Shown here: positions 1 to 62,165 of the stretch, piece after piece | Position numbering within the stretch: the first letter of the stretch is position 1 | Layout of the letters: every line of letters begins with the position of its first letter | Made by a program: the position numbers and the translations under genes | IMG/VR virus record: IMGVR_UViG_3300043803_002473 | Span: 57,471 to 121,470 of that record | From: a virus | Direction: 5' to 3' (one strand) | Length of the DNA stretch: 64,000 nt | Notes under the pieces: model-generated | What the model was told of the DNA's origin: nothing | Seen by the model: the letters and a program-made list of their open reading frames with translations, nothing else | The model's database searches: none

Positions 1-1077
1 GCTGAAGCTTACGGCAATTTTACTTCAGGTGCCCCAGTAGATACAGACAGGCAGCTGATAGCTAAGTTTAAACAAACCTTAGGTAGTTCTAGATTTGAAT
101 CGGCGGCAGGTATAGCCAACAGAATTAAGCAGCAATACCCATCATTTCAGTCACTTTCCGTTGTGGGGGCAAATGATCCTGAAATGCTGAGATCTAAACA
201 AAATGTTTTAGGTATTTCTACTTTTGGTAAGGCGGATGTTTATGTCAGAACTTCAGTAGGACCAGAGTTAAAAACTGCTACAGTCGTAGGTACAAAGATA
301 CAGAATGGAAAATGGCGAATTCAGTTAGACAACAGCTTTTGCTCAGGATTTTATAGACTTTCTTCTATTTTACCCGCTGTAGATGATATATCTATGAGTG
401 GAACTTTACTTACAACAAATATCTCTTACGGTTATAGGCAGTTTTTGGGTGCTAGAAATAATGAAATTAATAACGCTCTAGAAGCTCGTTTTACAAAATA
501 TCAAACAGCCGCCATAGACTTTAGCTATAATGAAACTCCAAATATACCTTTAGTCTCAGGGCAACAACCCCCAACTAAAGAATTTGAAATCACAGCAATT
601 TATCAACCTTACATAGAAGAAATTCAAAATCTACTTCTTTCGGATAGCGAACGATTTGCCTGTGCCGACTATTTGGTTAAAGCTGTTTTACCTTGTTTTG
701 TTTCTTTAGAGATACCTGTTGTAAAAAAACAGAGTACAGACACTTATGACTCGTTACGATTGAATAAATTAAAGCAGGATATATTTACATATATAAACAC
801 TATTCCTTTTGGAGAAGATTTGTACGCATCTAAAATTATAGATCTATGTCATAATTACGACATCGCACGTGTAGATTTACCTGTAGTTTTAAAGGGAGAT
901 ATTTTTTGTAATGATGGAACAATAATTACTATAACAGATACAGATTATTTATCTATACCTACACGAATAGAAAAAGGTGTTTCTAAAATGACTACGCTTT
1001 ATTTTACAGATTATTATAGATTTGACCAAGATGATGAGCTAGAAACCGTAGACAATATAGGAATTAAATTAATCTGA
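1..1077 (+). CDS. Baseplate J-like protein, 5' truncated by the window edge
   Basis: The frame is open from the first base, so the start codon is upstream and 358 residues are visible. The early part, a helical stretch followed by VVGANDPEMLRSKQNVLG and KADVYVRTS, matches the core pattern of Baseplate_J / T4 gp6-type baseplate wedge proteins (a GxxDPEM-like turn followed by a beta strand with D-x-Y-V-R). Such proteins form the wedge ring of contractile tails. The stop overlaps the ATG of the next gene (TGATG), indicating coupled translation in a baseplate operon. The family call comes from pattern recognition, and the missing N-terminus limits confidence. Confidence 0.72.
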   Translation, partial: AEAYGNFTSGAPVDTDRQLIAKFKQTLGSSRFESAAGIANRIKQQYPSFQSLSVVGANDPEMLRSKQNVLGISTFGKADVYVRTSVGPELKTATVVGTKIQNGKWRIQLDNSFCSGFYRLSSILPAVDDISMSGTLLTTNISYGYRQFLGARNNEINNALEARFTKYQTAAIDFSYNETPNIPLVSGQQPPTKEFEITAIYQPYIEEIQNLLLSDSERFACADYLVKAVLPCFVSLEIPVVKKQSTDTYDSLRLNKLKQDIFTYINTIPFGEDLYASKIIDLCHNYDIARVDLPVVLKGDIFCNDGTIITITDTDYLSIPTRIEKGVSKMTTLYFTDYYRFDQDDELETVDNIGIKLI

Positions 1078-2915
1078 TGGACTTCGATTTTATATCTAAA
1101 AAATTTCCTTCAAATGACGCAACCGACGGTAATAAGTTATACAAATCACTTGGATCGTTTTGGACTCAGATTTTTCAAGAGAAGGGAACTCTAAAAGGTT
1201 ATACTTTAGGTATGGCCGAAGAGTTAATTCAAAGTTATTACTCTCTTATCGAAGTTTTAAATTCTTATTCGATTAAAGATACTCCTATTTTTAATTTAAA
1301 GCGTTGGCAGCCTATCACTATAAAAAAATCTGAATTTAATCAGGTTTCTTTAAACTTTCAAAAAAACTCCGCTGTTTTTGGAGCTCAACCAGAAAGCGAT
1401 AGATTTTATGCTGGAAAAGTTTTTCGTTTTGGTTTTCCTAAAAACACTAATAATAATGTTTTTAGCTATAAGCCAAAAATTAAGTTAAAAAAATTTAATT
1501 TGTTAGCTAACCGAATTATAGGTCCTTCTATTTTTTACATAAATGGTGTTGATGTGATTATTGATGATTTTGATGTACTTTATTTTAATAAAAATATTTT
1601 TGAATCAAAAGAATTCCCTAAAGCCTCTATTGTTAGCGAACATGGAGAGCCAGTAACATTTAAAGATGAAAAAGGTAACATTGTTGATGACGAATTTATT
1701 ATTATTTGGGCTTATCATGCTGAATTAGATAATGCTAATTTGTATGATAATTTTGGTCGAATTTTTGAATTAAACTTACCTTCATCTCAAAGCTATAAAG
1801 ATATTTTAAATGGTATAATTAATTTGTTTGTCGCTGGCCCTACTGTTAATGCAATAAAAGCTATAATGTCGGCTTTTGGAGGGGTTGTTCCGGTGATAGA
1901 GCCCGAAGAGACAGTAGAGCAAGTTTATTCAGATAATTTAAATAAGTATGTGGTTACCGATAAAAATATATACACATTTAAACCATATCAAAATATTTTA
2001 AAAAATATAACAGTAGGTTCAACTGTTTATGGTGGAGAGATTTTAATAGACTTGGTGCAATATTATGACCTTTTAACTACGCCCCAATGGTGGCAAAAAG
2101 AGATTACTACACCTAAACTGGCACTTTCGTCGCATATATTTTTAGGAAATTATAAGCACCAGCTTTTTTTACCTAACAATGTAGATTTAATTACTTTAAC
2201 TACTCAAGACAATCTAGTTTTTCCGATTCAGGGTAGAGCAGAGGATGTCAGAGAATTTCATAAACACATAAACAAGCCAGAAAATAAACAAGAGTTAAAA
2301 CAAAAGTTGGGATTAACACCTGACTCTCCATCTACGGTAATAAATCCCGTAGACTTTGTTTTTACAAACATACTAAAAAATAATACTGCGTTATTAAAAT
2401 TTAATTTTAACAATCCTGAAGAATTAGCATACTTTTTTAATTTTTTACCGCTAATTAAAGATTACCTACCTCCACACGTTTATTTACTGTTTTATATTAA
2501 CCTTAATTTGCCTATTGATGTTTTGGATAACTTGAATGAGCGTTACAGTTTAAAGGATTTTCCAAATATTCCTTTAAGTATAGACGGTTCTTTAGGGAAT
2601 GGTCTACGTCCCCAGCTAGCTACAAACGATATCTCATATTACAAAGATTATATAAATAGACTTTTTTGTATTAGTGAAGGACCCTACGCTGAAGACGCTG
2701 CCCATGGAGGCACAATTCCAGCTTCTGAAGAAGATAAAGAGCCATTACACAAAGAACAAAATTTATTAAAAGTAACTATGATGACTGAAGGGCAAGGAGC
2801 GGCTATTCCTGGACAAGCTAGGGTAATTAGTGGTAAAGTTTTTACTAGCATACCTGAAACACCTGTACCGACTACTAGAGAAATTCCTACAGTGTTATTA
2901 ATCGACTTTTCCTAG
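1077..2915 (+). CDS. Putative baseplate/tail structural protein
   Basis: A 612-residue protein translationally coupled (ATGA overlap) to the baseplate J-like gene. No catalytic motif is visible. The sequence is rich in Asn, Phe, Lys and Ile with mixed beta and helix character, and has an acidic/proline-containing C-terminal tail. Position directly after a baseplate wedge gene and before fibre-type genes suggests a baseplate or tail-tip component, comparable in location to gp7/gp8-type wedge proteins. That is inference from synteny; I do not recognise the family. Confidence 0.55.
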   Translation: MDFDFISKKFPSNDATDGNKLYKSLGSFWTQIFQEKGTLKGYTLGMAEELIQSYYSLIEVLNSYSIKDTPIFNLKRWQPITIKKSEFNQVSLNFQKNSAVFGAQPESDRFYAGKVFRFGFPKNTNNNVFSYKPKIKLKKFNLLANRIIGPSIFYINGVDVIIDDFDVLYFNKNIFESKEFPKASIVSEHGEPVTFKDEKGNIVDDEFIIIWAYHAELDNANLYDNFGRIFELNLPSSQSYKDILNGIINLFVAGPTVNAIKAIMSAFGGVVPVIEPEETVEQVYSDNLNKYVVTDKNIYTFKPYQNILKNITVGSTVYGGEILIDLVQYYDLLTTPQWWQKEITTPKLALSSHIFLGNYKHQLFLPNNVDLITLTTQDNLVFPIQGRAEDVREFHKHINKPENKQELKQKLGLTPDSPSTVINPVDFVFTNILKNNTALLKFNFNNPEELAYFFNFLPLIKDYLPPHVYLLFYINLNLPIDVLDNLNERYSLKDFPNIPLSIDGSLGNGLRPQLATNDISYYKDYINRLFCISEGPYAEDAAHGGTIPASEEDKEPLHKEQNLLKVTMMTEGQGAAIPGQARVISGKVFTSIPETPVPTTREIPTVLLIDFS

Positions 2916-2923
2916 CATTAACG

Positions 2924-2929
2924 TATAAT
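2924..2929 (+). promoter_or_regulatory. Possible -10 promoter element (TATAAT)
   Basis: A perfect TATAAT preceded by ACG lies in the short gap between two virion genes, 11 nt before the next ATG. No convincing -35 box is seen. The same G-T-A-T-A-A-T or G-T-T-A-T-A-A-T core recurs at 19391, 20443 and 32590, always near a transcription-unit boundary, which supports a shared promoter class. Confidence 0.4.
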
Positions 2930-2939
2930 TGTAGAAAAT

Positions 2940-3515
2940 ATGATAAACACAGAAAGTACTAATTTGAACAAGTCCATTTCCGGATTCATAAAGGTATGGA
3001 AAACCTCGCCGGAAACAGGTGAGAGCCAGTTGATCGTAGACCAGCCTAATATGATTTTGTACGGCGGGGCTAGACTAATGTCTTACGCTATTTCTGGAAG
3101 AGAAAATGCAAAAATTTGGGGAATGTACATTGGCTTTAATAACAACCCAAATGGCGAATTTACCAGACCCGTCATAGACCCATCTTATTCTCAACCATTT
3201 GCAAATTTAGATCCTGACGATGGATTTGGTTATTTAAGAGAGCCTTTAACATTTACTCCAACTTATCTATCAGACGGCATTTATACAGATAATACCGCAT
3301 TATTTAGCGTTATGGTAACGTCATCTACCTCCATTAATGCTACACCATTTTTGCATGATGTTAGCCGTATTTACGAGGTAGCTCTGGTAGGATCTTTAGA
3401 TCCTTCCAACAGTACGAAGGACATAGTTTTTTCTAGAACAGGTTTTAACCCTGTTAAATATGATACTAATTTTAATTTTACAATAACTTGGGGGATCAAA
3501 TTCCTCGTAGACTAA
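2940..3515 (+). CDS. Putative tail/baseplate structural protein
   Basis: A 191-residue protein with a beta-rich composition (ISGFIKVWKTSPETG, then many Ser/Thr/Asn/Pro turns) and no recognisable catalytic motif. It lies between baseplate-type genes and a long fibre-like protein, with a TATAAT element just upstream. It is most likely a small virion protein such as a tail-tip or fibre-connector subunit, judged by context only. Confidence 0.5.
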   Translation: MINTESTNLNKSISGFIKVWKTSPETGESQLIVDQPNMILYGGARLMSYAISGRENAKIWGMYIGFNNNPNGEFTRPVIDPSYSQPFANLDPDDGFGYLREPLTFTPTYLSDGIYTDNTALFSVMVTSSTSINATPFLHDVSRIYEVALVGSLDPSNSTKDIVFSRTGFNPVKYDTNFNFTITWGIKFLVD

Positions 3516-3523
3516 TTTTAGCC

Positions 3524-5629
3524 ATGCCTATCACACCTTGGGTTCCTACAGTAAGAACGATCAGAGACGGGGAAGAAGTTTCTCAGTCTGTGGTGAACGT
3601 ACCTCTCGAACAATTAATTCAGAGGGAGCAGCACCTGTATGAAAAATTTGAAGAATTGCTCGGTAAATCTGTTCTCATTGCGTTTGGGCAACCAGTTTAT
3701 CCTACAGAGCTGCAAGGGACCAAACCCCTACACCAAGATGAACTAAATATTGTTTATTTTAGAGAAGACTCTGGTGGTCGTGGTGTGGCTAGAGCTTTAA
3801 CAGGGTTTTCTTCCACTAGTACTAAGGGTATGTATGCACCCAATAAGTCTAATTATTCTTTTGGTATTGTTAAAGCTATGTCTCCAGGAACGACTCCGTT
3901 GGTAGACACCTATATTGAGGGACTATGCGAGTTATCAATTGATTTAGACGATCCAGACCGTGGTTTAATTGAAGTCGAAAGAAACCATTTAAATGAGCCT
4001 GTCGTGGAACCTTTTGAAGTAGGTCCTTATTATTTATCCAGAAAATATCCTGGCAAGATAACCAAAGATCCTGCAGGTATCCCAACTTATGTAGGATACG
4101 CTATATCTAAACGTAAATTTTTGTTACATGCCTCAGTTGACGAGTTTTCTCAATTTTTTATTAACTACAGATATAATGTTTTGGATCGACCAGCCGCAAC
4201 ACCATTACTGACAGGAAGTACTTGGACGATACCCACAACCGGTAATCCAAATAGGCTTGGTTGGATAGCAGCTAATTCTAATAATTTACCTGGTTATTCA
4301 ATTCCTTCAGGAGCTAAGTTTTTTTATTATATTCCTGAAGGACTATTGCTGCCTACTTCACCAGACGCAGATTCATTGACAGAAAGTGAAAAAGTTGAGG
4401 CATCAGAATTAAAAGGATTACTTCCTCCTGTACCTTCAAACTTTGTAGAAATCAAAGCAAATGGTATTACACAACGTTTGTTAGATGAGTACACACCGGA
4501 CGGTATATATAAAATAGATAACTATGGTTTATGGTGGTTCGATGACCAGGCGGGATTTCAACCTTGGGCAGATGACATTTTGTCGGAAGGTGTTTGGACT
4601 CCGAACGACTGGCTAGAATATAGGGGTAGTAACTTTAGAAGACCTAGGCTTTTTATATCTTTTTCTAAATTTAACCCAGCTTTGAGAACACAGTTAGTTA
4701 GTTCTCTAACTCCTTATAATGATTTGGAAAACTCTAATGTCCCTGCAGGTGAAAAAAATAATAGTGAGGAATTTATAAAGTTTTATTTAAAGGAAACAAT
4801 TACTTCAGCCGTAGTCAAAGAATCTAAGACAGGTGACTTGGCTGTAAAAGTTACACCTAAGTTTATTCCTAAAGGAGTCACAGGATCAGCTCCAATCCCA
4901 CCGCAAGCACCTACAGCCACCTATACATCTGACAGAGGTGTAGCTGACCTATCTTTCGACCAAGCAGCAGGAAAGTTTGTAAAAGTTTCTACACCGGTAG
5001 TAGCTAAAATAAATGGTCAGGGCGGAATAAATGTAACTCCGGCACAGAATCAACCAGGCGTATTCAACATATCATATATGTCTACAGGTATCTATGGTGC
5101 CATCGATTCAATAGAGCCTGTTAACGCTAGATTGGAGTTTAGAGGATTAAGTTCTTATTTAAAATTTCCATATGCTCAAACGATAACAGTTCCTTATGGT
5201 GTCATAGGTAAAATATTATTAACTAAAAAAGCTATAGCCGCTCCCGCTAATCTCAAAATATATGTTCAAGCCTTCGGCACTGCGAGCTATGCACCAGAAG
5301 CTACCGATAAACAAATAGCTTTTACATTTGAATATGCTGCAACCACAGCTGCCAATAGTGAAGCTCCAACATCGGTCAAGATAGCAAATAAGTCTGTTTT
5401 AACTGCCGCAGTAAGCAGCTCGGTTGTTTTAACCACTCTCACACCAATAGAGGAAGGTTATACTGCGTATGATGTAGTTAATCTTGAAGGTAACCTTGTT
5501 ATCCCAGCTGCTAATATAGCCGAGGACACTGTAGTAAATTTTAAATTAATGCGAAACATCACTGAAACCGGTAATTACTTAGGAGACCTAGGTATACTTG
5601 GTTTATACTGGGGTGTAGAACTAACATAA
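3524..5629 (+). CDS. Putative tail fibre or baseplate-associated protein
   Basis: A 701-residue protein. The frame is open 12 codons further upstream, but that start would lie inside the preceding gene, so the ATG beginning MPITPWVPTVRT is chosen. An N-terminal basic and glutamine-rich helical stretch (residues about 15-45) is followed by a long Pro/Thr/Ser-rich, beta-rich body; the C-terminal third looks like repeated beta-sandwich material. Context in the baseplate-fibre cluster implies a virion surface protein. The exact role is unknown. Confidence 0.55.
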   Translation: MPITPWVPTVRTIRDGEEVSQSVVNVPLEQLIQREQHLYEKFEELLGKSVLIAFGQPVYPTELQGTKPLHQDELNIVYFREDSGGRGVARALTGFSSTSTKGMYAPNKSNYSFGIVKAMSPGTTPLVDTYIEGLCELSIDLDDPDRGLIEVERNHLNEPVVEPFEVGPYYLSRKYPGKITKDPAGIPTYVGYAISKRKFLLHASVDEFSQFFINYRYNVLDRPAATPLLTGSTWTIPTTGNPNRLGWIAANSNNLPGYSIPSGAKFFYYIPEGLLLPTSPDADSLTESEKVEASELKGLLPPVPSNFVEIKANGITQRLLDEYTPDGIYKIDNYGLWWFDDQAGFQPWADDILSEGVWTPNDWLEYRGSNFRRPRLFISFSKFNPALRTQLVSSLTPYNDLENSNVPAGEKNNSEEFIKFYLKETITSAVVKESKTGDLAVKVTPKFIPKGVTGSAPIPPQAPTATYTSDRGVADLSFDQAAGKFVKVSTPVVAKINGQGGINVTPAQNQPGVFNISYMSTGIYGAIDSIEPVNARLEFRGLSSYLKFPYAQTITVPYGVIGKILLTKKAIAAPANLKIYVQAFGTASYAPEATDKQIAFTFEYAATTAANSEAPTSVKIANKSVLTAAVSSSVVLTTLTPIEEGYTAYDVVNLEGNLVIPAANIAEDTVVNFKLMRNITETGNYLGDLGILGLYWGVELT

Positions 5630-5634
5630 CTTAA

Positions 5635-6537
5635 ATGCCTTGGATAGATTCATTAGATTATTTAAACTTAAACTCCTTGAGACGTTATCCTTTGAGAGAA
5701 GGAACGTCTGTTAGGAGCATAGATGAACTATTTGAAATTCCCGATACTTTAATCGTAGAATTTTCTTTGGCAGCGTCTAACGACGTCAGCAAACGTTATT
5801 ATATATCAAAGTTTTTTAACAAGATCTTTTCTGCCACAATAGAGATATCAGAAATTTCTACAATCCCCGACCTCGTTGTTGGCAGCTTCGATATAGATTT
5901 TAATACACATAAAATCAACGATACTTATTATTTAACAGCCACTAACGACTATGTTGGGGCAAGGGGAAGAATTACTTTAGGTAGTATAGAGGATCTTAAA
6001 AATCAGCCAGCCGGTAATTTTATTTTTTCACCAGAAGCCACAGAGCTTGAGCCTAAAACAATAGTGCCGGGATTGGCTGGTGTAACAAGAATTAAATATA
6101 TTGATTCAGAGTCAAATACCAGAAGTTTAACTGGTGATGTGATTATGCAGGCTCGGAACAATATGAGATTTCAATATGAGCTTGATGAAAATCGCGTGGT
6201 TATGGATGTGGGAGATAACCTGGGGTTAAATAAAAATTGTGAAGTAACAAACTGTATCAAGAGAATAAATGGTGTGGGTCCTGATCCTGACACAGGAAAC
6301 ATTAGTTTGTTAGGTATTGATTGTTTAAATATTTCTAGTACATCGCCATATACAATAGAGTTGGATGATAGTTGCTGCACACCTTGCTCTGGTTGTGAAG
6401 ATTTGTCTGAATTAACAACCAGGCTTACAAGTTTAGAAAATAAATTTATTGAACTTAAGAATTTCTATACAACTATAAACGGACAATTAACAAATTATTT
6501 AACAACCGTTAATTCTAATTGTGAATGTCCTGATTAG
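5635..6537 (+). CDS. Virion protein with shared N-terminal anchor-like domain (paralogue 1)
   Basis: A 300-residue protein that begins with the signature L-N-L-N-S-L-R-R-Y-P-L-R-E-G, which recurs in modified form at the N-terminus of four other proteins in this cluster. After about 200 residues of beta-rich sequence there is a cysteine-rich segment with the pattern CCTPCSGC, then a Leu/Thr helical, probably coiled-coil tail of about 45 residues. The shared N-terminus suggests a common docking site on the baseplate; the variable C-terminus suggests a different exposed function. The clustered cysteines may bind metal or form disulfides. The function is inferred. Confidence 0.6.
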   Translation: MPWIDSLDYLNLNSLRRYPLREGTSVRSIDELFEIPDTLIVEFSLAASNDVSKRYYISKFFNKIFSATIEISEISTIPDLVVGSFDIDFNTHKINDTYYLTATNDYVGARGRITLGSIEDLKNQPAGNFIFSPEATELEPKTIVPGLAGVTRIKYIDSESNTRSLTGDVIMQARNNMRFQYELDENRVVMDVGDNLGLNKNCEVTNCIKRINGVGPDPDTGNISLLGIDCLNISSTSPYTIELDDSCCTPCSGCEDLSELTTRLTSLENKFIELKNFYTTINGQLTNYLTTVNSNCECPD

Positions 6538-6546
6538 AATTAAGGT

Positions 6547-9500
6547 ATGTCTGCATACGAATATTTAACAGTAAATAGTTTGACTACTTATCCGTTTAGA
6601 GACGGTAGAGCTGTTAATTCTATTCAACCTATAGATGCGGATGTTTTTTTAGACATTCTTTTTGTTGTTTATGACCCGACGATAAAACGTCCTTACATAA
6701 AACAAATAAAGTCTGAAGACGGAGGAGTGTCTATAGATTTTCATGATGTAGACGGAGATCTTAAAATTTTTACAGTTGAAATACCTTCGGCTGAATTTGT
6801 AAGTCATTATAAAAATTTTGATAAATCTTTTTTTGGATATATACCGAATGAATATAGGCCTAAGGCTGCAGTTAAATTAGTGTTTGGTCAGGGTATTTCT
6901 AAGATAGCAGATGTTCAATCTACCGTCGTATATACTCCCGATGAAACAGAGTTATCGCCATCAGCAGTACAATATTCTGTCCCAGAGGTTTCTACTTTAG
7001 AGTTTGAGTCTTGGTTCCCGGACTTTGATAGTAAGAACTATAATCCTAGCGCAGGGCAGGATATAATTTCTGTAAAAACTTATTTAAGGGAAGAAGAAGT
7101 TAAAATGCGTTATGGGTTTAATAACGTATTTAATTACTTAGCTCCGAGAACAATGTTTTTAGACGTAGCTAGGGGAGCTGGGCTGGGGCTGTACGACCCA
7201 TGCGATAATATCCCACCGCACGATTTAATCACTAGAATAAATCAAGTTGAACCTGACCCATCAGGTAATATTTATTTCAAAGTATCAGATTGTCATTCAT
7301 TAAGATTGTTGACTGACGATGAGCGAAACAGCGCATTGGAAAGAATTTTGGCTGACGGTACTGACTACGTTAATTTTAATGTTAAACATTATTTAAAATT
7401 TTGGGATCAACTACCTTATCAAAACTATAATGAAACTATTTCACCTAACGGAAAAAACGTTAATATTTTGGGGGACGGTCAAAACGGCACAATTAATTCT
7501 ATTAATCATGGATTTGTTTTAGAAAATCACTGTAAACCTAAATGTCCTCATGAAAATTTAAATGCTTTTGCTGAATATTTAAACCGAGTAAAAGATGGAG
7601 TATCTGAACTTTTTAAAGTGGTTGAAAACCCTATTGAGACTTGCGGTTACGCCACTATCAATGGAGCTATTTTAACAGCTACTAGTTTTTGTGACCAAAA
7701 TATAATAAATTCTAATTGGCTCGAAGCTCCTCTGTGTAATCAAGGATTTAAAAAATATTTTCATGAAGGTAGAAAAATTAAAATTCGTTATAATAATGCT
7801 ACTTTTTATAATCCTGAAATAGTGGAAGTAATCGAAGGTCAAAACGGTTTAAACACCCAGATTGTGTTAAACCAAGAACTTCCAGATTTTCTACCAGGAG
7901 AACAGTATTTATTTAAAGTTTTAGACTTTGGTTTAGTTAATAAATTAAATTTTGAAATCATTAAACATAATAATGCATTAATAACCACAAACTCACCATA
8001 TATTGAGTTTAACTATGGTACTGTAGAGGCATTTAATAATGATGATGAATATGTTACATTTATAACAACAGTTACCGTTGTATATAATCCAAGTGAAGAA
8101 GAAATAACTGTCGATTTTACTTCTGCAGTAAACGATATAACTACCTTAATAGATACTTCGGTTAAGGTAAAATATCCCGACGGTGAAATACGTTACGAAG
8201 AAACGGAAGCGGTGGTACCTTGTAAGGGTTATGCTATTTGGGAAGCTATTTTTTATGTTCCTTGTAGTCCTGAGCTTCCCGCACCTCCAAATGAAGGACA
8301 TGTTATAATTTCAGTGGTAAATCGCAGCACGGGAGAAATTTTAGAGAATGCTCCAAAAGAAGTAAAATTAAATAGTGCTAATTGTGTTAACATTGATATC
8401 AAGACAATACGAACCTCAGCTAAAGAAAACGATTTATTTAAATTTAACATAGTAAAAGCTTTAAATTTAAGTGATGTTGCAAACATATCTTTTGCGGGAA
8501 ATATTCCTGCTTGGTTGAATAGAGACACTTCTTCTACTGGTGCAGTTATTCCAGGTATTGAAGATAATGAAGGATACCACCTTTGGGGGACACCAACGGC
8601 AAATAATCAAGGAATTTTAAATGAAGAGTTTTCTATAGATATAACGATAACTGCTTCTGGTGTGTTTAGAACAACATTATTTTTAAGCTATATCGCAAAA
8701 CCTAGAATAATTTCACATACAAATGGACAAATTATAGAAATAAACCCTCCAGATACATTCACTAGAACTTACACACAAGGATCACCGTTAATTAGAATAA
8801 ATGCAACCAACACCCCAATTGATTATAGATTTGAATCTGCGATACCTGGTTTTGGTCAAGCTGGCGCAAATTCTAATAAATTTATAGGTAGATATGGGTA
8901 TAATCCAACATTTGTTTTTCCAATAACTTATCCAGTTAGACTGTTTGCCATAAATAGTGCATCTTCTGAGGAGGATGAACTGTATGTAGATATTTTTGTA
9001 AAAGTTTATAATGTTGGGCAGACAGCTTCAACAGCTTTTCAAGATATTGCATATTGTTTCACTATTCCAAACCCAGATTCAGCAGCACTAACATTAATTT
9101 CTACACTACCTTTATGGTTAAATTTTGATAGAAATGCTGCCGAGTGTAATTTGAGCGGATTAAATAGTTCAAATATTTCTGTTATTGAGCGCGTGGTTAT
9201 TCGATACGATTATGCCAATGGCTTTGAAAATAGAGAGTATTCGATAGGCTACAGGGCACGCCCTGTTATAACTTACCCACCCGAGCAAGTTGGAAACAAT
9301 ATTTTCACATTAGAGTTACGACCCCCAGACTACACAGTTTCAGGGCTTTCTAAAGTTTATAACGAGCAAAATCCTTTAATTAGTGTAAAAATTTTAGATG
9401 CCTCTAGTACCGGATTAGTTTACTCAGCCGAAGGACTACCTACAGGCTTAGAAATAAATGAATCTGGTAAGATTATAGGACAAATAGATGAGTCGGTTAT

Positions 9501-20442: not shown

Positions 20443-20448
20443 TATAAT
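20443..20448 (+). promoter_or_regulatory. Candidate promoter of the large RNA region
   Basis: A perfect TATAAT (context TTTGTTATAATACTATG) lies just after the last small gene and before 2.1 kb of non-coding, highly structured sequence. A start around 20455 would put a perfect 10-bp hairpin (GGTCTATTAA 20468-20477 with TTAATAGACC 20492-20501) at the very 5' end of the RNA. No good -35 is visible. Confidence 0.5.
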
Positions 20449-20454
20449 ACTATG

Positions 20455-22187
20455 CTGACGGTTTGTCGGTCTATTAATTGAAAATACTTTCTTAATAGAC
20501 CTATTCTTAAATAGCAATATACTTTTTTTAAAATTTATTTTACTGGTTAATTTTTAATAATTTTTAGCTGGCAGCTATTGTTGCGCTCGGGTTATATATA
20601 ACAAAGATCTATTATATATACGCTCAACGGGAATGACTCCCACCACATAAAGGAACAACTTACCTGGTTTAGTTGTATGGCGATAATCTGAAATGGTCCG
20701 CAGCTATTTCAGCAAACCGCTCGCTAGATAGTCGATGTGCGCAAATTGACTATATTAGAACGTGGCGCAACACCCATTGACTTTTAGTGTGTATTTATAT
20801 ATACTAATAATCTGGCCGTGTGCGGCCATAAGATAACCCCAGTAATGGGGACAAAGTGAACTCTCATCACCGTGAGAGTTTGCGGGGATCTTCGATCCCT
20901 CTGAGCACACAAGGAGGTAATCATCTTTTCTGCCTGTTGAGGGTTAGAAAAGTTGCTCGTCGGTTGAGACCCGATGGGTGAGTGCGAAAGTACAATAAGG
21001 AAACCTTTAGCTGATATGCGAGCAACTGGACTGGTAATCCAGCAATCGCGTTTAGCAGCCTAGAAGTTGTCGCTAGAGCAATCTAGAGGCAACTACGAAA
21101 CAGTGACGACCAGTCACAGGACTAGTAGCGCATCGATTCCCTCAAAAGGGGAGTTGGCGGAACCCGCAAGCACTAGTTCGGAAATCTCGGGTGAACATGA
21201 CTTGTCTCGAAAGAGACTCATTAACCAAAAAGGAAAGCCTTGCGGCTTCTGCAGTGAAAGATGACTTCGTCCCAAGTTACGCTTGGGGTTTGCTGGCTCC
21301 CTAAGGCCAGTATGATAGAGGTTAGGATAATCTTTGGATACCGTTGCTGGTATTGGAGGGTGCGTAGCCTTCACAGAGAGGAACTAGCGAACAACTGTGG
21401 TTGAAACCCTGACTCAGGGAAATTGAGTCGTCATTGCTGGGTACGTTGCAAAACAACGTGGATAAAACGGAGAATCAATATACTCCGTCAGAGACCAGTA
21501 CTTATAGCTGTAATCTCAAGCTATATAATTTTCTCGACTTGGCGAGTATAAATAGGATGTAAGCCAAGAGCGTTGCAGGTATGAGTATCTGCAGAATTCG
21601 GAGCGGTAGACCTTCTAGAGGTTACGGCTCCCTGGCCCAGACTTGAGTCACTTCAGGTCAAAAGTGTACTGAGGCACGTGAGTGAACCATACAACAGGTA
21701 CATTGCCAGAACAAAAACGGGGGTGCTTCTTAATTTGTTGCCCGTATACTTTCAGGGAGGTGTGGAGATCAAAATCATTGATTACTCTTGTACGGAAAAA
21801 TCTCGTACACCTCCCAAACTTTTGTAGGATATGCTGAGGGTTCTGGAGGATATGGTGGGGATCATGGGCTCCAGCACGATAGGTTGCTGCCAGTCGTGGC
21901 ATCGGTAAGCATATATAATTGAGAGTGATGCACTCACCTACAACTTACTTTGAATGCGTGACGAAAGTCTCGTTACGAATAGTGCTAAAAAATAACTCGC
22001 CCATAACTATACACCGACAGGATTAGGCGAAAGTCGGGGAAGCAATAATCCACGTTAGCATACGCATTCAAAAATTTGTTTTGGCTTACTGAGCTGCTGT
22101 GGTGAGCTCGGCAAGGAACCTACAAAGTTTCACAACAGTGAGTGCCACAGCACTTGTGAAACTAGGAACCAGCCAAAACAAATTTTT
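20455..22187 (+). ncRNA. Very large structured non-coding RNA (candidate)
   Basis: About 1.7 kb without a credible gene but dense in perfect helices. Examples: TGTTGCGC 20579-20586 with 20765-20772. A multibranch loop closed by GTGTGC 20818-20823/20905-20910, holding hairpins at 20859-20880 and 20885-20899. AGTTGCTCG 20951-20959/21019-21027. GAAA- or GCAA-capped hairpins near 20982, 21073 and 21204. Further stems: 21271-21287, 21467-21488, 21503-21525, GGGAGGTGT 21755-21763/21807-21815, nested 21822-21835/21908-21943, and 21949-21959/22062-22072. A 17-bp helix 22070-22086/22171-22187 closes the end. The architecture resembles ornate phage RNAs such as GOLLD or ROOL but is much longer, and I cannot match it to either. 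The exact ends, and whether it is one or several RNAs, are inferred. Confidence 0.72.
22070..22187 (+). other. Pseudoknot domain clamped by a 17-bp helix
   Basis: A perfect 17-bp stem (22070-22086 with 22171-22187) encloses two crossing helices. TGCTGTGG (22095-22102) pairs with CCACAGCA (22145-22152). AGTTTCACAA (22126-22135), lying inside that helix, pairs with TTGTGAAACT (22154-22163) outside it. This is an H-type pseudoknot with 8 and 10 bp. A competing small hairpin GAGCT/AGCTC at 22091-22109 is possible, suggesting a switch. Confidence 0.65.
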
Positions 22188-22194
22188 AGCTATT
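22183..22194 (+). repeat. 12-nt direct repeat TTTTTAGCTATT, copy 1
   Basis: This 12-mer follows the 17-bp closing helix. An identical copy lies at 22599-22610 at the end of the next structured domain, and a partial copy (TTTTTAGCT) at 20561-20569. The recurrence at domain boundaries suggests a shared 3'-end, processing or termination signal, or a trace of duplication. Confidence 0.55.
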
Positions 22195-22603
22195 TGAGGT
22201 TAGCCTCATAAGGTGCACGATGGCCGACTACCATCTAGTGAGATCCTACTCATGATTGAAGCCAGGTCGTTCTGGTAAAATGGGGCTGGTTACCGCAACC
22301 CGCTGACGGTCAGCGAGAGTCAGAAAGTTTAACTTTCTTCAGGCGAGGCGCGTTTATGTATCTAGGACAGGCAAGATCAGTCGTGTCTGCATGATGGTAC
22401 TGCGTCGTAGACCTTGAGACACGACAGCCGCAAGTTTCGAACGGGTAGCCTCCTCCGTTAATGGGTGACTAGGGAACATGTGCGGCGGCGCATAGGACTC
22501 CAAAAGTAGAATCAATAAACCCGCCAAAAATTTTTGTGGTATCTAATACATACACACATACCACTGACCCAGCAGTGAAGCGACACAATCTGGGCACTTT
22601 TTT
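22195..22603 (+). ncRNA. Second structured RNA domain (candidate)
   Basis: About 410 nt, bounded on both sides by TTTTTAGCTATT repeats. Helices include GAGG/CCTC at 22196-22207, GATGG/CCATC near 22219-22235, CGCTGA/TCAGCG near 22301-22315, GAAAG/CTTTC near 22323-22337, a 9-bp stem GTCGTGTCT 22380-22388/22417-22425 and GTGGTAT 22536-22542/22558-22564. It may be the 3' part of the same transcript as the preceding domain or a separate RNA. No open reading frame or known RNA signature was recognised. Confidence 0.6.
22568..22603 (+). terminator. Candidate terminator of the large RNA region
   Basis: CCCAG (22568-22572) can pair with CTGGG (22590-22594), followed by CAC and six Ts. The stem is short and the loop long, so termination strength is uncertain. 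It lies 15 nt before the next gene, where an RNA end is expected. Confidence 0.4.
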
Positions 22604-22610
22604 AGCTATT
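22599..22610 (+). repeat. 12-nt direct repeat TTTTTAGCTATT, copy 2
   Basis: Exact copy of the element at 22183-22194, overlapping the T-run of the candidate terminator and ending 7 nt before the next ATG. Confidence 0.55.
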
Positions 22611-62093: not shown

Positions 62094-62165
62094 GGGATGG
62101 TAGCTCAATGGTAGAGCAGTACCCTTTTAAGGTATTGGTTCTGGGTTCGAGCCCCAGCCATCCCA
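62094..62165 (+). tRNA. tRNA-Lys (UUU anticodon)
   Basis: A complete cloverleaf: acceptor GGGATGG/CCATCCC with discriminator A, D-stem GCTC/GAGC, anticodon stem GTACC/GGTAT with loop CTTTTAA giving anticodon TTT, variable loop TGGTT, and T-arm CTGGG-TTCGAGC-CCCAG. The CCA end is not encoded. It is the only tRNA in the window and fits an AT-rich phage that uses many AAA codons. Confidence 0.93.

Follow-up and report, generated by a model that had tools for sequence, protein, structure and literature searches.

The interval 20443-22603 of the window, the 64,000-nucleotide stretch of DNA analysed here, lies on a 121-kb virus contig and raises the question of whether its 2.15 kb of non-coding sequence specify a single giant RNA, as the initial annotation proposed, or several smaller ones. 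The best reading is that several phage RNAs are strung together here and that the region does not encode one new giant RNA. The claim that it holds no credible open reading frame (ORF) was borne out, as none lies between 20425 and 22618, and a protein-coding reading was dropped because of this absence. The G+C content is 0.42-0.49 in the RNA segments versus approximately 0.33 in the surroundings. A single new RNA of 2.15 kb is contradicted by the central third, which holds a full-length GOLLD RNA (E 8e-39) together with a Pistol ribozyme that exceeds its Rfam cutoff; the excess length of the region arises because several RNAs stand in a row. The following features were delineated:

20443-20448, plus strand: TATAAT -10 box, presumed promoter of the RNA island (from sequence)
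20580-20771, plus strand: 5' module closed by GTTGCGC/GCGCAAC (minimum free energy (MFE) z -3.8 for 20580-20790)
20777-20805, plus strand: possible second promoter TTGACT-17-TATACT directly 5' of GOLLD (10 of 12 consensus positions)
20800-21522, plus strand: full-length GOLLD RNA of about 720 nt (Rfam RF02032, 5' profile and comparison with related contig G062)
21532-21599, plus strand: Pistol self-cleaving ribozyme (Rfam RF02679, 47.4 bits, cutoff 34.5)
21600-22560, plus strand: non-coding segment downstream of Pistol, without a family (no ORF on the plus strand)
21748-21823, plus strand: GGGAGGTGT/ACACCTCCC hairpin, resembling AGGAGGTAC/GTACCTCCG at an equal distance behind Pistol in related contig G051
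22070-22187, plus strand: perfect 17-bp stem (22070-22086 with 22171-22187) with an 84-nt loop, then the T-run ATTTTTAGCTATTT (inverted repeat)
22562-22603, plus strand: terminal H-type pseudoknot CACTG/CAGTG and CCCAG/CTGGG, then a T-run (covariation in 6 sequences)

GOLLD and Pistol in the window

GOLLD and Pistol are both known families. GOLLD comprises a universally conserved 3' domain and a less conserved 5' domain upstream of it; to our knowledge, it ranks among the largest structured RNAs and forms RNA-only cages, and we know of neither an assigned function nor a description of how its ends are made. When the window was scanned with Rfam at default settings, Pistol was the sole match within 20443-22603, and a permissive scan of the interval was needed for GOLLD. 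There the 3' domain (21118-21522) aligned with positions 1-416 of RF02032 at 141.2 bits (E 7.9e-39); this falls slightly short of the curated threshold of 150 bits, which the 81%-identical GOLLD of G062 reaches (150.0 bits). Thus, the annotation was right that a phage carries a large, ornate non-coding RNA region here, and the likeness to GOLLD that it saw was sound, but its statement that the sequence could not be matched to that family fails, as all 416 model positions are covered; its own Rfam check returned significant matches for the central third. The 5' domain (20800-21045) was recognized by a profile HMM built from 37 other GOLLDs (E 5.4e-9), and its presence upstream of the complete 3' model makes this GOLLD full length, though divergent. 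Like GOLLDs at other loci, it has both domains in order and lies in non-coding phage DNA; it differs in its low score (141 bits, compared with 184-333 bits for 18 other GOLLDs that were checked), and in having Pistol and approximately 1 kb of RNA behind it where others carry a T-run or tRNA-Met.

The GOLLD part folds far beyond chance (MFE z -10.2 over 710 nt). Between the window and G062 sequences, 21-22 pairs show compensatory changes and 26-29 are broken, as counted on the fold of either sequence alone. An equal number of random substitutions broke no fewer than 46 pairs and produced about 3.5 compensatory pairs on average (maximum 11). The dozens of helices reported earlier were not confirmed throughout the region: the second half (21600-22610) has an MFE z of -4.35 versus -4.86 for a coding control of equal length, so that thermodynamics does not single it out.

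Pistol begins 9 nt past the GOLLD end and displays P1, P2, P3, the pseudoknot, the AUAAAUA and GAGCG core, and a phage context. Its P1-loop pseudoknot covaries, with CTTGGC/GCCAAG in the window corresponding to CTATGC/GCATAG in G051. The usual scissile dinucleotide of the family is GU, against which GA in the window and CA in G062 are atypical. The 2-nt scissile junction is strictly conserved in Pistol ribozymes, and cleavage leaves cyclic-phosphate and 5'-OH ends (PMC4604425). In the window, preserving this junction requires that the outer U-G pair of P3 be open; the Rfam alignment is one base short. From the known site of the family, the cut is predicted between 21594 and 21595 (PMC4604425). 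Compared with described members (RF02679, PMC4604425), the window copy thus differs in its scissile GA, its probably open outer P3 pair, and its place right behind GOLLD. Several Pistol-like cores occur in tandem in the viral contigs L062 (at least four to six at 3361-6921) and L038 (three at 680-4285).

Flanking segments and terminal pseudoknot

The TATAAT promoter proposed earlier does exist as a box at 20443-20448, and a similar sequence, GGTATAATA, precedes the unit in G062 and G065; however, it has no good -35 box, consensus matches being not above chance. In a promoter scan, the number of sites of the TTGACT-17-TATACT type was likewise not above chance. Between these two putative promoters lies the 5' module, which may tentatively be viewed as a divergent copy of X-RNA, a conserved element of about 150 nt in the clade, closed by GGGCGC/GCGCCC and located 5' of tmRNA in G051, G052, G053, G065 and G054/G055. 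X-RNA copies (L274 1141-1290, L275 851-1000, L276, L277, and L288 5282-5109 on the minus strand) score 83-174 bits with their own model; no match to X-RNA was found in Rfam, and none lies near other GOLLDs in 100 loci. The model scores 15.2 bits against the 5' module (E 0.002 in 2.3 kb), and a chance-like match of 15.3 bits occurs elsewhere in the window. The identification of X-RNA in the 5' module is suggestive, yet not significant over the whole window.

The second kilobase is less distinctive. No Rfam family was matched in 21600-22610 at E<10, and for this segment the earlier exclusion of tmRNA, RNase P RNA, group I/II introns and ROOL holds, whereas GOLLD itself does match in the region. 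Specifically, tmRNA was rejected in the second half as Rfam, ARAGORN and a search of the 121-kb contig gave no match. Except for the terminal 50 nt, no homologues were detected by blastn against phages and plasmids, in the compared loci, or with six back-translated patterns over IMG/VR. The hairpin at 21748-21823 resembles its G051 counterpart (Smith-Waterman z 4.8 against shuffles), a likeness to be regarded as moderate because it is the best of several dozen comparisons. Only the 17-bp stem and the terminal pseudoknot stand out in this half. The stem region (22066-22190) has an MFE z of -5.6 and shares an 18-nt match with the end of the G062 unit; together with its T-run at about 22190, it may be an internal terminator dividing the second half.

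At the 3' border, the T-run of the earlier description is present, but the structure before it is an H-type pseudoknot rather than a simple hairpin. This pseudoknot is common to the window, G062 and the tmRNA-type units of the clade, with the pattern CACTG-n-YCCRG-CAGTG...CYGGR. Its stem 2 covaries (CCCAG/CTGGG, TCCAG/CTGGA and TCCGG/CCGGA), and over 6 sequences 96.7% of cells pair, compared with 25-46% when the partner is slid. The strict pattern was found in IMG/VR in G062 and G065 only.

Related phages and other GOLLD loci

A DNA-polymerase search yielded 21 related contigs. G062 carries GOLLD (150 bits) directly after its first TATAAT, Pistol 11 nt later, and then only about 300 nt and a 3' end of the window type; these 300 nt stand in place of approximately 1 kb in the window, so that neither length nor sequence is kept. 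At the syntenic site of G051, G052, G053 and G065, Pistol (60-62 bits) heads a tmRNA unit composed of X-RNA, tmRNA (which in G053 scores under the cutoff) and additional non-coding sequence, and no match to GOLLD was found in these four islands. The sister islands thus resemble the window in genomic site, Pistol type and terminal pseudoknot, and differ in holding X-RNA and tmRNA without GOLLD, while the window phage has no tmRNA in its 121-kb contig; tmRNA scores above cutoff in 13 of the 21 relatives. Since modules and the 3' pseudoknot recur at the syntenic site, the window unit is a variant of a clade-typical island of exchangeable modules.

Several further RNA elements were observed in these phages. 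The T-loop of the G065 tmRNA (L274, about 1939-2592) is interrupted by approximately 650 nt, probably an intron, for which Rfam gave no confirmation, and in G061 (L282) a match to a group I intron (68.7 bits) lies 16 nt past the tmRNA. An abiF RNA (RF03085) lies near the tmRNA locus in the relatives G067 and G066 (L279 124-88 and L286 1714-1677, both minus strand). The window itself carries a single tRNA-Lys(UUU) gene at 62094-62165, separated from the RNA island by about 40 kb.

A pattern for the GOLLD 3' domain detected at least 118 loci in IMG/VR, and 119 GOLLD loci enter the counts given here; all 18 pattern loci submitted to Rfam were GOLLD (184-333 bits). Among the matches listed, most GOLLDs end in a T-run without a processing element: 86 of 119 have a T-run behind the GOLLD end by a simple pattern, which includes some T-rich spacers before tRNA. 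Among the same matches, the GOLLD end is followed by tRNA-Met at a spacing of 14-28 nt in 13 of 119 (ARAGORN) or 15 of 119 (anticodon motif), and Pistol only in the window and G062. By eye, L292, L328 and perhaps L366 have a minimal acceptor and T-arm-like helix behind GOLLD. L302 bears a strong Pistol (69 bits) on the same strand, on the 5' side of GOLLD. Given the rarity of Pistol in viral contigs (77 stretches by a strict pattern), three Pistols at GOLLD borders would be unlikely to arise by chance; GOLLD was found in none of 50 Pistol-bearing viral contigs at large, and the link therefore appears specific but uncommon. A loose pattern (GOLLD end plus AUAAAUA) gave, among the matches listed, apparently chance ones, and the sole bacterial match to a GOLLD end with a Pistol core, in Paenibacillus oceani, is not a Pistol.

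In relatives, GOLLD lies near tRNA or tmRNA loci, and many GOLLD-bearing phage contigs, among them L298, L305, L313, L318, L327, L364 and L294, have a tmRNA within a few kb, often on the opposite strand. Additionally, L305, L309, L318, L364, L366 and L313 have a further non-coding region of about 400 nt behind GOLLD and tRNA-Met or a tRNA-like element, at roughly 90-540 nt past the end of GOLLD, which is possibly an unassigned RNA class. Several of these regions end before a T-run in interleaved stems (e.g., GGCTA..GGGAGAT..TAGCC..ATCTCCC) that recall the window's terminal pseudoknot.

Proposed processing of the GOLLD 3' end and alternative explanations

The region is probably a polycistronic non-coding RNA of an uncultivated dsDNA phage, in which Pistol would cut GOLLD free and thereby mature its 3' end, taking the role of a tRNA or terminator. 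We infer a single transcript, running from the TATAAT at 20443 to the pseudoknot and T-run at about 22603, in which GOLLD and Pistol would fold and Pistol would cut between 21594 and 21595. Cleavage would yield two products, the downstream RNA and a GOLLD monomer that keeps a short ribozyme tail and could assemble into a GOLLD cage. Pistol would thus do the 3'-end job apparently performed elsewhere by a terminator, a tRNA-Met (an RNase P substrate) or a tRNA-like helix; that an RNase P substrate holds its spot in other loci supports such a role. GOLLD is a closed 14-mer nanocage by cryo-EM (PMC12286853), with which a 1-kb tail on each chain would be hard to reconcile. A precedent is provided by theta ribozymes, small ribozymes that likewise sit at a phage-RNA border, the 3' trailers of phage tRNAs, and serve end processing; they differ in their HDV-like fold and tRNA partner, and kinship with Pistol is not claimed (PMC10879173). 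Against the processing reading may be set the atypical scissile GA/CA, a 2-nt junction that depends on an open outer P3 pair, the GOLLD-Pistol order found in two phages only, the T-run without a processing element in most GOLLDs, and the lack of a -35 box at the first promoter.

Independent transcripts are an unlikely arrangement, in which GOLLD would start from the promoter at 20777-20805, each RNA would have ends of its own, and the role of Pistol would be limited to trimming or tuning the downstream RNA, for example through a 5'-OH altering its stability. The TTGACT-17-TATACT site just 5' of GOLLD and the GOLLD-less units headed by Pistol in four relatives favor it, but the G062 GOLLD directly follows the first TATAAT, no terminator separates GOLLD from Pistol, and the promoter scan showed no second promoter behind Pistol. 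Quite improbable is a new class of structured RNA spanning all 2.15 kb without a break, which would have absorbed a GOLLD core and a now inactive Pistol as internal domains. Although the unusual cleavage site, the absence of a strong terminator directly behind Pistol and the raised G+C along the whole region agree with it, the second half folds no better than coding sequence and is not preserved in G062; moreover, Pistol and the 3' pseudoknot are also found without GOLLD and are therefore modules. It is highly improbable that the cut serves circularization or ligation, in which an RtcB-type ligase would join the cyclic-phosphate and 5'-OH ends. Pistol yields ligase-type ends (PMC4604425) and RtcB is common in the control genomes of hosts, but the unit has a single ribozyme, so that a GOLLD circle cannot form directly, and no RtcB or RNA_ligase family was found in the 121-kb contig, which is possibly incomplete.

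Returning to Pistol-mediated release of GOLLD, it is conceivable, though doubtful, that the approximately 1 kb of RNA past Pistol represents a large phage RNA of a new kind, made together with GOLLD, freed by the ribozyme, and working with the cage, for example as cargo or partner; the GOLLD loci L305, L318, L364 and L366 likewise have about 400 nt of additional non-coding sequence behind a tRNA-Met or tRNA-like element. In the literature searched, whose coverage was partial, no report was found of a GOLLD-Pistol fusion, of the swap of elements behind GOLLD, of the clade-specific X-RNA, or of the terminal pseudoknot. The presence of a ribozyme, tRNA-Met, tRNA-like helix or T-run at one spot behind GOLLD points to the importance of a defined 3' end, and the fact that GOLLD shares RNA islands with tmRNA, tRNAs and further unassigned RNAs hints at a link to translation.
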